Positions 56,682 through 64,000 of a stretch of DNA of 64,000 nt are shown here, one piece after another (the stretch's first letter is position 1; each line of letters opens with the position of its first letter). Origin of the DNA: Stygiobacter sp. (GTDB lineage Bacteria > Pseudomonadota > Alphaproteobacteria > Rhodospirillales > Magnetospirillaceae); the NCBI GenBank assembly GCA_006218045.1, contig VBWB01000006.1, forward strand, positions 1-64,000. The letters are read 5' to 3'. Below the pieces are notes generated by a model, which was not told the origin of the DNA, searched no databases, and saw nothing but the letters and a program-made list of their open reading frames with translations. The position numbers and the translations under genes are program-made.

Positions 56682-58021
56682 ATGGACCAGTCCAAGCGCT
56701 ATTGCAACCTGGCCCTTAACGAAGCCGAACTGATGGCCCAGGGCCGTCATGTCCTGTGCGCCTATATCTTCAAGCCCAAGGCCGGGTACGAACCCATTGC
56801 CACCGCCGCCCACTTCGCCGCCGAATCCTCGACCGGCACCAATGTGGAGGTGTGCACCACCGACGATTTCACCCGTGGCGTCGATGCTCTGGTCTATGAA
56901 GTGACCGAACAGGCGAACGGCGAATATCTGATGAAGATCGCCTATCCCAACGACCTGTTCGACCGCAACCTGATGGACGGTCGGGCCATGATCGTGTCGT
57001 TCCTGACCCTGACCATCGGCAACAACCAGGGCATGAGCGACATCGAAAACGCCAAGATGCATGATTTCTGGGTGCCGCCGGCGATGCTGCAATTGTTCGA
57101 TGGTCCGGCCATGAACATCGCCGACATGTGGCGGGTGCTGGGCCGGCCCCAAGTCAATGGCGGCATGGTGGTCGGCACCATCATCAAGCCCAAGCTGGGT
57201 CTGCGGCCCAAGCCGTTCGCCGATGCCTGCCACCAGTTCTGGCTGGGCGGCGACTTCATCAAGAAATCCCGCTGGTGGCCGACGCCCTGCGCCGGGCCCA
57301 GGACGAAACCGGCGAGGCCAAGCTGTTCTCCGCCAACATCACCGCCGACGATCCGTTCGAGATGATCAAGCGCGGCGAGATGATCCTGGAAACCTTCGGC
57401 GAAAACGCCAACCGCGTCGCCTTCCTGGTGGACGGCTATGTGGGCGGTCCCAGCGCCATCACCCTGGCCCGGCGTTATTTCCCCGGCCAGTTCCTGCATT
57501 ACCACCGCGCCGGCCACGGCGCCGTCACCTCGAAACAGTCCAAGCGCGGCTATTCTGTGCTGACCCACATGAAGATGGCCCGCCTGCAAGGCGCGTCGGG
57601 CATCCATACCGGCACCATGGGCTATGGCAAGATGGAAGGCGATCGGGACGAGAAGATGGTCGCCTACATGCTGGAACGCGATGTCGCCGATGGCCTTTAC
57701 TTCCGCCAGGACTGGCAGGGCATCAAGGCGACGACGCCGATCATCTCGGGCGGCATGAATGCTTTGCGGCTGCCCGGCTTTTTCGACAATCTCGGCCATT
57801 CCAACGTCATCCAGACCTCGGGCGGCGGTGCCTTCGGCCACAAGGACGGCGGCACGGTGGGGGCGAAATCCCTGCGCCTGGCGCATGAGGCCTGGGTGCG
57901 CGGCGTCGATCTGGTGGATTTCGCCCTCGAACATCCCGAATTGAAGGGCGCCTTTGAAAGCTTCCCCCAGGATGCCGACGCGCTGTACCCGGGCTGGCGC
58001 GACAAACTGAAGGTGCGGTGA
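56682..58021 (+). CDS. cbbM: Form II ribulose-bisphosphate carboxylase; reading frame broken by an internal deletion
   Basis: The first part (227 codons from ATG 56682, AGAGGA upstream) follows R. rubrum RuBisCO almost residue by residue ([58 protein letters not shown]). At GGDFIK (about 57263) the frame shifts. About 46 nt are missing relative to the family segment after FIK, including the metal ligands Asp and Glu of the KNDE motif. The other frame resumes as [20 protein letters not shown] at 57266 and runs to 58021 ([26 protein letters not shown]). Restoring 46 nt gives 461 aa, the normal form II length. As written it cannot make active enzyme; a sequencing error is possible. Confidence 0.92.
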
Positions 58022-59229: not shown

Positions 59230-59422
59230 TCCATCGCTTGATAATTTTTTGGGTCGGGGGTATTTTCACTCCCGGTCGGCAGTTCACCAAGGCGTCGCTG
59301 TCCCCCTGGGGGAAGCTAAACCTGCCCCAATCCACGACGGTCACACACTTGTCCTGTGCCGAGTCGTAAGCCAGCGACCAACGACATTTCACCAAGATCG
59401 GCACTCAGACCGAGGATAAGTG

Positions 59423-59968
59423 ATGTCCAGAACCGTATTTCCCCTTGTCGCCAAGGATGTCTCTTTGCTGGCGCGGTCGCTGACGCGTGAGCTTGAGGCC
59501 CGCGAAACCAAGCCCAGTCATGTGGAGATGCTCAACATCCTGGCCCGTTCCGCCGGCTATCGCAATTTCCAGCACCTGCGGGCGGAATCCAACGCCGAAG
59601 ACCGGCTGCAACAGCTTCCCATTCCTCCCGAACCGGTGGAACATGGCCGGGTGCTCAGGGTCAGCCGCCATTTCGACTCGCGGGCGGTATTGCTGCGCTG
59701 GCCGAAGAAGGCCAGCGAACGTCAGCTTTGCCTGTGGGTGTTGTGGTCGATCATCCCATCGGGTCGTTGCTTCAGCGAAGCTGAGGTCAACGATATCCTT
59801 ACCGTCGGCCATGTGTTCGGCGACCATGCGCTGTTGCGCCGGGCCTTGTGCGACAACGACATGATGAGCCGAACCATCGATTGCCGCGAATACCGGCGGC
59901 GGGAACAACGGCCACCGACCGAGGCCCTGGCCCTGATCCGTCATCTGGGCCTGCGCCGGACGCAGTAA
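59423..59968 (+). CDS. DUF2087 domain protein
   Basis: This 181-residue cytoplasmic protein has a C-terminal DUF2087 region (about 95-165) with LLRWPKKASERQLCLWVLW, FSEAEVNDIL and GDHALLRRALCDNDMMSRTIDCREYRR. The N-terminal module (about 8-55, LARSLTRELEARETKPSHVEMLNILARSAGYRNFQHL) resembles the small helical module seen on some glyoxalase-like proteins. DUF2087 is often attached to HTH regulators, but no HTH is evident. Start ATG 59423 (or GTG 59420) follows GAGG. It converges on the hairpin array. Confidence 0.78.
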   Translation: MSRTVFPLVAKDVSLLARSLTRELEARETKPSHVEMLNILARSAGYRNFQHLRAESNAEDRLQQLPIPPEPVEHGRVLRVSRHFDSRAVLLRWPKKASERQLCLWVLWSIIPSGRCFSEAEVNDILTVGHVFGDHALLRRALCDNDMMSRTIDCREYRRREQRPPTEALALIRHLGLRRTQ

Positions 59969-60257
59969 AAGCCGAAAAAAAGGGGGGGAGCCTTGGGGTG
60001 CTCCCCCCCTTTGCTGCCTGCCGCCGGTTCCTTGGGGTTCGGGGACGAAACCGGCGGCGACATGAATGGAGGAAGAACGTTTGGGGGCCGCTCTTCCTCC
60101 TGAAGTTTTCCGCTGCACTGGGGTTCGGGGACGTGACAGGCGGAAAACCCCATGGGCTTGGGGGATGAGAGAGGCCCCGTTGGGGGACGGAACCTCTCTC
60201 GAACGCTTGTTTCCGGCTTTGGGGTTCGGGGACGGACGGAAACAAACGATGGAAACT
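59969..60257 (-). ncRNA. Array of six stem-loops with a shared loop motif; candidate structured RNA or 3' UTR
   Basis: Six successive hairpins have unrelated stems but related loops. H1 59979-59990/60001-60012 (12 bp); H2 60020-60029/60049-60058 (10 bp); H3 60068-60076/60092-60100 (9 bp); H4 60105-60113/60140-60148 (9 bp); H5 60167-60174/60193-60200 (8 bp plus an inner 4 bp); H6 60207-60215/60237-60245 (9 bp). On the minus strand every loop contains CCCCAA, and in H2, H4 and H6 the longer GTCCCCGAACCCCA. H1 is followed on the minus strand by TTTTTTT, making an intrinsic terminator. Minus is therefore the likely strand: either the 3' UTR of the kinase ending at 60258 or a separate small RNA. 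No frame codes the motif consistently. Confidence 0.55.
59974..60012 (-). terminator. Intrinsic terminator closing the hairpin array
   Basis: The perfect 12-bp stem 59979-59990/60001-60012 (seven G:C pairs in a row) is followed on the minus strand by seven T. It should end transcripts coming from the kinase gene or from the hairpin array. Confidence 0.8.
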
Positions 60258-61988
60258 CTATTCGGCGGCCTGTACCTCCCCGTCCACAATGGTCAGGTGC
60301 ATCGGCTTGCGCCGGGGCAGGGAAAAGCTGAAGGTGCTGCCTTCCCCCAAAGTGCTTTCCACCCAGACCTTGCCGCCCATGTGCTCGACCATGCGACGGA
60401 CGATGGCCAGACCGATGCCGGTGCCGCCACCGTCGATACCTTCGAGACGGTGGAAAATCTCAAACAGGCGGATCCGGTCGCGCGGGTCGATCCCAGCGCC
60501 GTTATCGCGCACCGAAAACACCAGGCAATCGCCTTCGCTGCGGGCACCGACATGGATCAGCGGCTTGCGGCTTTCGCAGCGATAGCGGACGGAATTGTCC
60601 AGAAGCTGGGTGAAAATCTCGGCCAGCGCCCGCTCATCGACCAGGGCGGAAGGCAGCGGATCGACCACAACGGTGGCGCCGGCACCGCGTATCTGGTCGG
60701 CGAGCCGATCCATGGCGGTGGACACCGCGGTGGCGACCGCCACCTCGCCGTCACAATCGGGAATCTGATCGACGGCGACGAAGGCTTCCAGATCCTTGAC
60801 CAGCTTGCGCATGCGCTGGGCGCCGTCGACCACGTGGGCGACATAACCGCGTCCTTCGTCGTCAAGGGCCGAAGCCACGTGGCTGGACAGCAACTGGGCA
60901 TAGGCGACCACCCGGCGCAACGGCTCCTGCAAATCGTGGGCGGCGACCTCGGCGATACGTTCCAGATCGGCGACATAACGGCGCAGACGAACCCGGCTGG
61001 CCAGCAATTCCGCCTTTTTCACCGCCAGATCGGCGGCAATGGCTTCCTGGGCGCGAACCATGCGGTAAAGGGCGATCAGGGCGGCGCCCAGGGCCAGGGT
61101 CACGGCGGCACCGATCAAGAGATGCCAAGTGACGGAGCGGTCGTAAACGGCCATGGCCTCGGCCTTCGCCCGCCCGACCAACACCGAAAGCGGCAAATTG
61201 GGCAGCGGACGCAGGCTGATGATACGGTCGATGTCGTCGAGCGGACCATGGCTTTCCAGCGTCGTCGCTTCCTGCCGGCGCACCGCTTCCAAGATGGCGC
61301 CGCCTTGCAGGCTCGTCCCCAGAAAACCACCGCCGCCATGGGAGGCGACACGGACCACGCCGTCAGTGCCGATGACGGCGATGGCGCCGTTTTCGCCCAC
61401 ATCGATGGAACCGTAAATCTCGCCCAGGTAATTGGGGTCGAGGGAAACCACCAGCACGCCGGCGAAATTGCCCTGCCCGTCTTCCAGCCGTCGGGTCAGT
61501 TGGATCGACCACTTGCCCGAAGCTCGCCCCAGCACCGGCTTGCTGATGAACAACTCATCCTTGCGGGCGGCTTTGTGAACGCGGAAATGCTCGCGATCGG
61601 ACAAATCCATGCGGGTGAAACCCAGGACGTTGCTGTCAGCCAGCACGCCGTCGGCGCCGATGCGGGCGATCTGTACCGAAACCCGCTTCAAGATGACATT
61701 GTTGGCCACCGAGCGGTTGAGGTCGAAACGCTCGGGCGCCTGCTGGAACTCGGCCCGCAAATAAAGAAGGGTCTGATCCAGGCCGGCTATGGTACGCTGA
61801 ATGTGTTCGTCGAAGGCACGGGCCAGATTGGCTGTGTCGGCGCGGGTATCGGCAAGGACACGGGTCCGCTCCGAACTCAGGCTGGCATAGATGACCACCC
61901 AGACCATGACCAGCAGCGCCGCGCCAAACCAGGCAACGGCCCGCGCTGCCCGCAATTTCACCGCGCCCACGGGGGTGGCGGCAATCAT
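60258..61988 (-). CDS. Cache-domain sensor histidine kinase
   Basis: This roughly 576-residue inner-membrane kinase (longer frame to 62057) has TM1 at about 16-36 and a periplasmic double-Cache-like sensor (about 45-270, with IARIGADGVLADSNVLG, LSDREHFRVHK and GIAV-type strands). TM2 lies near 283-305, then a coiled coil. HisKA has AEVAAHDLQEPLRRVVAYAQLL (His about 347), the bacteriophytochrome-like type, and HATPase has DNSVRYR, DNGAGID and GTGIGLAIVRRMVEHMGG. ATG 61988 with GGGGGTGG upstream is preferred. It is divergent from an OmpR-type regulator, its possible partner. Confidence 0.9.
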   Translation of the reverse strand: MIAATPVGAVKLRAARAVAWFGAALLVMVWVVIYASLSSERTRVLADTRADTANLARAFDEHIQRTIAGLDQTLLYLRAEFQQAPERFDLNRSVANNVILKRVSVQIARIGADGVLADSNVLGFTRMDLSDREHFRVHKAARKDELFISKPVLGRASGKWSIQLTRRLEDGQGNFAGVLVVSLDPNYLGEIYGSIDVGENGAIAVIGTDGVVRVASHGGGGFLGTSLQGGAILEAVRRQEATTLESHGPLDDIDRIISLRPLPNLPLSVLVGRAKAEAMAVYDRSVTWHLLIGAAVTLALGAALIALYRMVRAQEAIAADLAVKKAELLASRVRLRRYVADLERIAEVAAHDLQEPLRRVVAYAQLLSSHVASALDDEGRGYVAHVVDGAQRMRKLVKDLEAFVAVDQIPDCDGEVAVATAVSTAMDRLADQIRGAGATVVVDPLPSALVDERALAEIFTQLLDNSVRYRCESRKPLIHVGARSEGDCLVFSVRDNGAGIDPRDRIRLFEIFHRLEGIDGGGTGIGLAIVRRMVEHMGGKVWVESTLGEGSTFSFSLPRRKPMHLTIVDGEVQAAE

Positions 61989-62256
61989 CGCCGCCACCCC
62001 CGGGGACGCGGGGCCGCCGCCCAGGTCCAGGCCCTGAAGCCCGGAACCAACGCCCATCCCTGTGCGGCGGCGGCCATCCCGTAAAAGTGGGAAACTGCAC
62101 TGTGGTCAATACGCGTGGACATCGTCACGCTGGACCTCCTCAATTCGTGGGCTTAGTTATAACTGCCCCCTTTCAATGGAATATCGGGTGTGCTTGAATT
62201 CGTGTGAAACACGATGTCAACAACATGTAAATATCCGCAGATAACTTAGGAGAGAC

Positions 62257-62970
62257 ATGGTGAACGGATCGGCCAAAGCGCATGTCCTGATCGTTGAAGA
62301 CGAGCCGGTGACCCGTGCCAAACTGGCCGCGCATCTGATCTCGGAAGGTTTTCAAGTCAGCGAGGCCGCCGACGCCCGCGACATGCGGACCATCGTCTCG
62401 CGCACCATCCCCGACGTGGTTTTGCTGGATATCAATCTGCCGGACGAAAGCGGCCTGATCCTGGCCCGCGACCTCAGGGCCAAATCATCGGTGGGGATCA
62501 TCCTGGTCACCGCCCGCCATGACGAGACCGACCGTATCGTCGGCCTGGAACTGGGCGCCGACGACTACATCACCAAGCCGTTCAACGCCCGCGAACTGGC
62601 GGTACGGGTGCGCAACCTGATCCGGCGCGTCGCCCCCAGCATGGCGGCCGAGCGTCAGGCCAGCGGCGTCTATACCTTTTCCAACTGGAAGCTGGATTGC
62701 GATGCCCGCCAACTGATTTCGCCCGAGGGCGAAGCGGTACGGCTGACCCGGGGCGAGTTCGACGTATTGGCCGCCCTCGCCCGCAATGCCGGACGCGCCC
62801 TGACCCGCGACCAGTTGCTGGACCTGACCCAGCATGACGGCGAAGCGGTGATCGACCGTACCATCGACGTGCTGGTCGGTCGTCTGCGCCGCAAGATCGA
62901 GGCCGATCCCAAGCATCCGGCGATCATCGTCACCGTGCACGGCATCGGCTATCGCCTGGCCGGAAGCTGA
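62257..62970 (+). CDS. OmpR-family response regulator (TorR-like)
   Basis: This 237-residue regulator has a receiver at about 8-122 (acidic residues in LIVEDEPVTRAKL, Asp about 58 in VVLLDINLPDESG, Lys about 107 in YITKPF). The winged-helix DNA-binding domain is at about 140-235 (RLTRGEFDVLAALARNAGRALTRDQLLDL, VTVHGIGYRL). The receiver wording resembles TorR/ArcA regulators. It is flanked by a divergent Cache kinase and a convergent TorS-like hybrid kinase, either of which may phosphorylate it. The upstream spacer (61989-62256) contains the promoters. Confidence 0.92.
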   Translation: MVNGSAKAHVLIVEDEPVTRAKLAAHLISEGFQVSEAADARDMRTIVSRTIPDVVLLDINLPDESGLILARDLRAKSSVGIILVTARHDETDRIVGLELGADDYITKPFNARELAVRVRNLIRRVAPSMAAERQASGVYTFSNWKLDCDARQLISPEGEAVRLTRGEFDVLAALARNAGRALTRDQLLDLTQHDGEAVIDRTIDVLVGRLRRKIEADPKHPAIIVTVHGIGYRLAGS

Positions 62971-63073: not shown

Positions 63074-64000
63074 CTAAACCACCACTTCGTTGAGGGCTTT
63101 CAGCGACCGGTTCCACAACTCGCCCAGATCCTTGGTCAGGTTCTGGGCCTTGCCGTCGCGGGCGCGGGCGGCGTTTTCGATGGCGCGGCAGCGCGCCGCC
63201 AAGGCGGTCAGATGCAGGCTGGACGAGGCCGAGGCCAGACGGTGCACCGGCGATGCCAGACCTTCCAGATCGCCGGCGGCGGCGCGGACCAGGGCCGCCT
63301 CCAGATCCTGAACCGATGACCGCCCGAACAAATCCACCAGCCCGCGCATGCGCTCGTGTCCCAGATCACGCATGTCGGCCAGCAGATCGGGCAGATTGAC
63401 CAGGGACGGCCCGCCCGAAGACTGACGCGCACTTCCGGTGGTGCCGCCGGCCAGGATACCGGCCACTTCCTCGACCCGGAAGGGCTTGGCCAGGCAGCCA
63501 TCGATGCCGGCGGCGCGCCAGGCGCGCACGTCCTGTTCCACCGGATTGGCGGTCAACAGCCAGATATGCTGGGCCGGGTCGGCATTGGGCAGCGTCCGCA
63601 GGCGCCGCGCCACCTCCAACCCGTCCATGTCGGGCATGTGCTTGTCCAGCAGCACCAGATCGAAATGATGGCGCCGCGCCAAATCCAGGGCAGCGGGACC
63701 ATCGGCGGCGGTCATCACCGTGTGGCCGTGGCGTTGCAGCAGACCCGAGGCCACTTGCAGATTGACCTCGTTGTCATCCACCAGCAGCACCACCTGCGGC
63801 ATCAGCGTGGGGATTTCCTTGGCTTCCGCCGCCGCCGCCGCCAAAACGGCATCGGTGAAGGGGATGCGGAACCAGAATTGGGTGCCGCTGCCCGGCGAGC
63901 TGTCATAGCCGATGGCGCCGCCCATCAACGTCACCAGCCGCTTGCAGATGGCCAAGCCCAAACCGGCGCCGCCGTAACGCCGGGCCACCGACGAATCGGC
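63074..64000 (-). CDS. Hybrid sensor histidine kinase, C-terminal part (HATPase-REC-Hpt), runs off the window
   Basis: The visible part (about 309 codons, with the start beyond 64000) opens in the G2 box of a HATPase domain (VARRYGGAGLGLAICKRLV). It continues through a complete receiver (LLVDDNEVNLQVASGLL, LVLLDKHMPDMDGLEVARRL, LAKPFR) and ends with an Hpt-like helical domain (LASPVHRLASASSSLHLTALAARCRAIE, candidate phospho-His in VHRLAS). The arrangement matches TorS-type phosphorelay kinases and the large kinase at 20976-24527. The convergent OmpR-type regulator is a plausible target. Confidence 0.88.
   Translation of the reverse strand, partial: ADSSVARRYGGAGLGLAICKRLVTLMGGAIGYDSSPGSGTQFWFRIPFTDAVLAAAAAEAKEIPTLMPQVVLLVDDNEVNLQVASGLLQRHGHTVMTAADGPAALDLARRHHFDLVLLDKHMPDMDGLEVARRLRTLPNADPAQHIWLLTANPVEQDVRAWRAAGIDGCLAKPFRVEEVAGILAGGTTGSARQSSGGPSLVNLPDLLADMRDLGHERMRGLVDLFGRSSVQDLEAALVRAAAGDLEGLASPVHRLASASSSLHLTALAARCRAIENAARARDGKAQNLTKDLGELWNRSLKALNEVVV

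Follow-up and report, generated by a model that had tools for sequence, protein, structure and literature searches.

Organization of the locus

In the window (the whole stretch of 64,000 nucleotides that was analyzed), genes for a histidine kinase and an OmpR-family response regulator diverge from a common intergenic region, and an RNA element follows the kinase. The kinase (60258..62057, minus strand; start codon uncertain) was identified with Pfam by its dCache_1 (just under the cut-off), HisKA, and HATPase_c domains and lies directly upstream of the element. The response regulator (62257..62970, plus strand) was assigned by Pfam and model comparison; it is TorR/ArcA-like, being nearest to the TorR and ArcA models at scores below their cut-offs. 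An alignment of 32 regulator/kinase intergenic regions reveals a conserved promoter-like region that faces the kinase and the array (62157..62231, minus strand). Coordinate checks place in it three repeats in steps of 11 nt, TTTACA, TTGACA, and TTTCAC (first bases 62231, 62220, and 62209, minus strand), and a TATAA element (62161-62157, minus strand), all of which are mostly kept in the listed part of the alignment. Direct repeats with this spacing suit regulators of the OmpR/PhoB type. A simple promoter scan around the array in the window returned none.

The RNA element (59975..60257, minus strand) is supported by its folding z-score, by homologs in 29 of 55 family genomes, and by covariation. 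It lies immediately 3' of the kinase stop codon and consists of an array of three tandem two-hairpin units (59979-60248), in the 5' to 3' order A1 B1 A2 B2 A3 B3, and a U-run. Two C-tracts occupy the conserved loop of hairpin A, (G/A)UCCCCGAACCCCA. In hairpin B the 5' arm is rich in purines and the 3' arm in pyrimidines, and a single C-tract lies in its loop, CCCC(C)AA. Folding and coordinate checks locate, all on the minus strand, A1 at 60204..60248 (loop with GUCCCCGAACCCCA), B1 at 60167..60200 (loop CCCCCA(A), purine-rich 5' arm GAGAGAGG), A2 at 60103..60155 (loop GUCCCCGAACCCCAG), B2 at 60068..60100 (loop GCCCCCAAA), and A3 at 60020..60058 (loop GUCCCCGAACCCCAA). B3 (59979..60012, minus strand), taken from the window sequence with a coordinate check, is the stem of an intrinsic terminator with the loop ACCCCAAG, and the seven U behind it (59975-59981, minus strand) were read from the window sequence.

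A preliminary description had reported six hairpins with one shared loop between 59979 and 60248. The hairpins exist there, and the case for them is stronger than first thought. Their loops are indeed conserved; however, they form three A-B units rather than six equal hairpins, and the extended loop assigned to the second, fourth, and sixth of them, GTCCCCGAACCCCA, belongs to A hairpins only. The stems had been given as 8-12 bp, whereas the predicted ones have 12-18 pairs. A further CCCCCAA between the fourth and fifth hairpins is present in the window but absent in the homologs (L002 has CCCCGATG there), and it is thus not part of the conserved element. The intrinsic terminator that was said to close the array has both its stem and its U-run in the window, but a U-rich tail (at least 5 T among 8 nt that follow the last stem) was found in only 20 of 28 loci and was missing from 8; thus, the terminator is not universal. 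The terminator of the window's array is absent from the list of a simple terminator scan, and Rfam at gathering scores gave no match at this array.

Structure and conservation of the array

On the minus strand, the region 59965-60257 has a minimum free energy of -146.6 kcal/mol, compared with -94.6 +/- 4.9 kcal/mol for 200 shuffled sequences, none of which was as good (z = -10.6). The plus strand folds only modestly (z = -3.0, with one shuffle as good). Comparison of homologs leads to the same strand: paired columns of 68 sense units, from loci of 28 genomes, contain 150 G-U cells and 15 A-C cells on the minus strand, and the sense strand folds more stably than its complement in 26 of 28 loci. 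Together, the wobble asymmetry and the stability difference identify the selected molecule as RNA of the C-rich (minus) strand, which bears out the strand proposed in the preliminary description. A coding role was considered and set aside. Some open frame, counted from the first unit, occurs in the sense direction in 25 of 28 loci and in the antisense direction in 26 of 28; which frame is open varies between loci, and three loci have no sense frame.

The stems covary strongly. In the structural alignment (A4, 69 aligned units), which was fitted to the model and therefore favors structure, 93.2% of stem cells are paired, compared with 52.0-59.2% when the partner is slid by one to three columns and 64.9% after shuffling. 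Changes on both sides were counted in 448 stem cells versus 112 in shuffles, and the covariation score is 0.817, versus at most 0.235 for slid and 0.265 for shuffled partners. All 24 stem pairs show two-sided changes, a count that does not discriminate by itself because 55 of 500 shuffles also reach 24. Agreement is weaker in MAFFT alignments that ignored structure (two-sided changes in 19 of 24 pairs, with 80.7% paired) and in a full-length MAFFT alignment of 12 loci (30 of 55 predicted pairs). The A helix is only 63% paired in the structure-free alignment, which we put down to misalignment. One of the 69 rows of A4 is an opposite-strand match (L037:1465-1535, plus strand), which was kept in the covariation test and left out of the loop and strand analyses, hence their 68 sense rows; the same artefact recurred when stretches from a pattern scan were scored (L147:3522-3592, plus strand). 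Counts of covariation, loops, U-rich tails, and strands cover loci of every array-bearing genome except G260 (28 of 29).

The loops behave very differently from the stems. In 59 of 68 sense units the A-loop core is exactly UCCCCGAACCCC. Two of the nine exceptions have a U in the first tract, three have AAA for GAA, one has an altered second tract, and the other three, the third units of L004-L006, have lost the first C-tract. Columns carry on average 1.66 bits of information in A loops versus 0.56 in A stems, and 1.53 bits in B loops versus 0.93 in B stems. The array is a conserved RNA structure in which stems serve as interchangeable displays for nearly fixed loops and the number of units is variable. 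Covariation and loop identity thus sustain the earlier proposal that selection maintains an RNA structure in which a conserved loop motif recurs several times.

Phyletic distribution

Searching 61 genomes at the nucleotide level recovered the region from every one of the 13 genomes in the window's genus (E 6.3e-6 or better) and from some relatives. We then used R1, a covariance model of one A-B unit built from 15 of 34 extracted units; those left out were mainly units whose B loop had been set in another register by MAFFT. Within the family, the model retrieved homologs from 29 of 55 genomes, always at a single locus. Arrays of three units occur in the sole g2 genome and in the window's genus, where 12 of 13 genomes have them and G006 has two units; two units were found in 14 of 17 g7 genomes and one unit in the sole g10 genome. 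No array was detected with R1 in the remaining 23 family genomes or in the g7 genomes G250, G251, and G256. The last three form one clade inside g7 on the regulator tree (support 99/97), which reads as a single loss of the array. A search with short stretches, which also missed the array in the array-bearing L065, L066, and L081, was not used as evidence of absence.

Outside the family, an order sample of 297 genomes gave one further weak match (G460, E 0.003), which we did not accept, and the sole match in a class sample of 337 genomes was the window's own genome; both searches were limited to scoring about 13-15 candidates per genome and could have overlooked distant relatives. The genome G088, with 31 bits to the Rfam BjrC80 model, was not accepted as an array carrier. 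An exact-pattern scan of named genomes returned 28 stretches, 21 of which are true arrays (6 plus 15 scored by R1). The genomes that carry them bear the names Magnetospirillum, Paramagnetospirillum, and Phaeospirillum or are Rhodospirillaceae metagenome-assembled genomes (MAGs); named carriers include M. aberrantis, M. moscoviense, M. sulfuroxidans, and P. marisnigri. A stretch labeled 'Terasakiella sp. PR1' has the match coordinates of G253 and was counted in the family set. The seven rejected stretches, which scored at most 20.1 bits with R1 or did not match it, are repeats of simple or palindromic sequence: three contigs of Magnetococcales HA3dbin3, Paenibacillus, Ruminococcus, RUG11810, and a gammaproteobacterial MAG. 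In the Magnetococcales MAG, palindromes such as CGGGGCUUCGCCCCGAACCCCACC on three contigs (L142:6738-6861, L146:89-188, and L156:3130-3253) make up a dispersed repeat resembling the pattern of the loops.

Phage and plasmid collections contained no array match, and viral contigs contained no pattern match. Together with the single locus in each of 29 genomes, this makes a mobile palindromic repeat very improbable. By the same evidence, the motif is not part of a known transposable repeat, the origin that, according to the preliminary description, would have contradicted its proposal.

Association with a two-component system

The array is tied by synteny to one two-component system. It lies just behind the Cache histidine kinase in 27 of 29 genomes, its first A loop being 25-110 nt past the kinase stop codon (27 loci measured). 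An ortholog of the response regulator is present in all 29 array-bearing genomes, on the contig of the array in 28; in the draft genome G009 the two are on different contigs. The regulator is unusually conserved (82-97% identity), and the kinase is 48-95% identical over the aligned part.

Two sets of genomes depart from this arrangement. Beside the arrays of G006 and G021 no kinase match was found; the regulator has been kept, and the array directly faces the promoter. In G021 the promoter repeats are degraded, and what is left is a TATAGT some 45 nt ahead of the only unit. Thus, the promoter-plus-array combination can survive without an adjacent kinase. On the other hand, G250, G251, and G256 have the regulator, the kinase, and the same promoter block and lack the array, which means that the array is dispensable there and that the promoter block is not exclusive to array loci.

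Several other features of these genes are worth recording. In the window (60258-60281) and in the 27 array loci, the kinase mostly ends in a short tail, E(V/A)xAA*, resembling a degron of the ssrA type and typically encoded by CAG GAG GYN NNN GCC GCC TGA; L046 and L050 lack the AA, and the kinases of the three array-less relatives lack the tail. It could be a degradation tag or a signal at the RNA level. Behind the response regulator, positions 63074-63988 encode the end of a hybrid kinase (HATPase, receiver, and Hpt domains) similar to the TorS and ArcB models. A kinase-sized gene family, F03, adjoins the regulator in several relatives, and the regulator may therefore serve two kinases. In G254, where the array has two units, the response regulator beside it (L129:6119-6807) matches in two frames around residue 175 and, judged from these matches, looks frameshifted.

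Comparison with known RNAs

The known family closest in design is BjrC80 (Rfam RF02354, from Bradyrhizobiaceae), which the array matched with 44.1 bits over the full model length (E 3.4e-7 in a search of 361 bases), far short of the gathering score of 80; across array loci, 8 of 19 matched the BjrC80 model at E <= 0.1, with 32.3-44.1 bits. In the reciprocal direction, R1 gave no match at E <= 1 to L140, a true BjrC80 (130 bits) and the one member tested. True BjrC80 exceeded the cut-off in 17 of 80 sampled genomes of its own family. It has four hairpins, and in most members that we folded, the loops of the first, third, and terminator hairpins are C-rich (GUCGCCCCC, GCCCCCC, and CCCCCA). The array shares with it a multi-hairpin design with C-rich loops, terminator included, and both lie behind one gene and near an OmpR-type response regulator. 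However, BjrC80 has four hairpins instead of A-B units, its second loop is not C-rich, its member L184 has a GAAA terminator loop, and the array core CCCCGAACCCC is absent from it. The neighboring genes differ as well: DegP upstream and the OmpR-type regulator downstream were found for BjrC80 in L140 and 18 of 18 further loci (of 20 loci, with L185 left out), whereas the neighbor of the array is the Cache histidine kinase (27 loci). Thus, the design is alike, and neither score, nor context, nor the reciprocal search with one member places the array in BjrC80; the likeness reflects either common descent or convergence. To our knowledge, BjrC80 has no known function.

The locus itself is very probably already in print. 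A transcriptome paper on M. gryphiswaldense, whose 5'/3'-end RNA-seq data are under GSE197098, lists a 'BjrC80 sRNA' of 43.4 bits and 181 nt for the minus strand, gives it no start site, and describes it as upstream of hypothetical proteins (PMC9549626). The array locus L002 scores 43.5 bits over 181 nt against the BjrC80 model, and this near-identity makes it very probable that the published entry, an unexplained sub-threshold Rfam match, is the array. Otherwise, we found little sRNA work on Magnetospirillum or Paramagnetospirillum, and nothing on C-rich multi-hairpin RNAs, in the open-access literature. What the analysis adds to the preliminary description is the division into A-B units, the link to a two-component system, the promoter, the differing numbers of units, and the weak BjrC80 match.

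CsrB, RsmY, and RsmZ consist of several hairpins that repeat one loop motif, GGA, for CsrA; their copy number of the motif varies, and they are under two-component control. The array resembles them in its several hairpins with one repeated loop motif, in copy number that varies between species, and in its two-component link. Their motif is GGA, whereas the array loops are C-tracts, and no GGA occurs in the A and B loops of 68 units; the comparison with CsrB/RsmZ made in the preliminary description therefore holds for the logic of the design and not for the motif. A C-rich loop motif is also characteristic of the CcsR ('cuckoo') RNAs, which are alphaproteobacterial sRNAs (Rfam description, RF02791). 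Their motif CCUCCUCCC is absent from the array loops (68 units), and RF02791 scored 13.6 bits against the array, its cut-off being 65.3. Weak Rfam matches to flg-Rhizobiales, Xoo2, 6C, and a microRNA at the array all fell below the cut-off. Outside the Alphaproteobacteria, LhrC of Listeria carries redundant UCCC motifs in its loops, terminator loop included, and requires LisRK for expression; control of RsmY/Z by GacAS is mentioned there too (PMC4132741). UCCC occurs in several loops of LhrC, and the array has UCCCCGAACCCC in the A loops of most units, with the limit that the terminator loop in the window is a C-tract without a leading U. The host and the sequence are unrelated, however, and LhrC exists in five copies (LhrC1-5) and is CU-rich instead of having paired C-tracts; moreover, pairing with targets was demonstrated for LhrC, whereas for the array such pairing is a hypothesis.

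Possible function

The array is probably an undescribed regulatory RNA of Magnetospirillum and its close relatives, controlled by the neighboring two-component system. It is best read as a regulator-linked 3'-UTR or a stand-alone RNA that presents C-tract loops to a partner in trans. As a whole explanation, we tentatively favor a trans-acting multivalent C-tract decoy RNA under two-component control, with less than even confidence. The minus-strand RNA, predicted to be transcribed, folds into one to three A-B units, as covariation and wobble asymmetry show. Synteny and promoter conservation suggest that transcription would start from the promoter between the regulator and the kinase, under the response regulator. 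The transcript would normally be the 3' end of the kinase mRNA and, in two genomes, a shorter transcript of its own. The stems would serve to display the loops, and the contrast in conservation points to the loops as the working part. The repeated C-tracts (two in A and one in B, sharing CCCCNA) may act as a multivalent decoy for a partner that binds single-stranded C-tracts; this would most likely be an RNA-binding protein, much as CsrB and RsmZ occupy CsrA with their GGA loops. The two-component system would in this way hand its signal to post-transcriptional control. We know of no C-tract-binding global regulator in these bacteria.

Alternatively, the C-tract loops, that of the terminator included, could be redundant seeds of a base-pairing sRNA that block the G-rich translation-initiation regions of several mRNAs, like the UCCC sites of LhrC in Listeria under LisRK, a possibility that we take seriously while thinking it less probable than the decoy. 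Ultraconserved single strands are known in base-pairing sRNAs too, and the loops are the most conserved part of the array; BjrC80, similar in design, has GCCCCCCUCC, which contains CCUCC, around its third loop. The layout described for LhrC, C-rich loops in several hairpins including the terminator, beside a two-component system (PMC4132741), fits as well. On the other hand, twelve (nearly) invariant loop bases are more than a usual seed, and the full loop complement is not enriched in the organism's own genome: the 14-nt complement occurs at 37 places (at most two mismatches; three of them are the array), compared with 81 for a reversed control, an excess that may be an effect of codon composition. 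Two of the places outside the array have one mismatch, and these were translated in six frames. We slightly prefer the decoy to pairing because the 12-nt core is nearly invariant, the A and B loops share CCCC-N-A with different N, the number of units varies, and the complement is not enriched; none of these reasons is decisive.

The remaining explanations fare less well. If the array were simply a cis-acting 3'-UTR whose hairpins protect or terminate the kinase mRNA, with no role in trans, its short distance from the kinase stop codon, its strong stems, and the U-rich tail of most loci would be accounted for; however, neither stability nor termination needs invariant loops or three units, and the arrays of G006 and G021 persist with no kinase alongside, which makes this reading unlikely. 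The exposed C-tracts might also serve Rho, as a rut-like or Rho-binding site that either terminates transcription downstream of the kinase or acts as a decoy. C-rich single strands are ligands of Rho, and the loci that lack a U-rich tail could be so explained, but Rho does not require the invariant GAA between the C-tracts, and the element was detected in just one family whereas Rho is nearly universal; we consider the idea very improbable. Least credible is an element acting as DNA, be it a plus-strand G-quadruplex (an alternative raised in the preliminary description), single-stranded DNA hairpins, or a mobile palindromic repeat: the plus strand is G-rich and does fold somewhat, but G-U exceeds A-C by 10:1 on the minus strand, which assigns the selected structure to the strand rich in C, and the array is neither multiplied within genomes nor matched in the phage, plasmid, and viral sequences searched.

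The decoy reading can be extended, more speculatively. The array might be a two-component-gated sponge for an RNA-binding protein that reads CCCCNA, a Csr-like titration with a different code, of which BjrC80, next to a two-component system linked to DegP, would be a parallel second instance in Alphaproteobacteria; we regard this wider proposal as rather doubtful. Whatever its partner, the array defines a regulatory RNA family that is clean and open to testing, in two genera, Magnetospirillum and Paramagnetospirillum, whose model strains are genetically tractable. Nature has also supplied versions with 3, 2, 1, and 0 units around an almost constant loop, which lend themselves to experiments on valency. 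A protein partner would place a new titration code beside GGA/CsrA; an mRNA partner would extend regulation by C-rich loops beside a two-component system to the Magnetospirillum family. The resemblance to BjrC80 could open both RNAs at once.

Other features of the region

On the far side of the array, a DUF2087 gene (59420-59968, plus strand) has homologs beside the array only in some relatives, and just upstream of this gene lies a COG3860 RNA (59273-59327; Rfam, 68.6 bits against a cut-off of 42.5). Further away, a RubisCO-like gene (56682-58021), which we take to be form II, is split between two frames near 57260, and its homolog in L134 is open over 493 amino acids; the split is either a sequencing error or a recent mutation.
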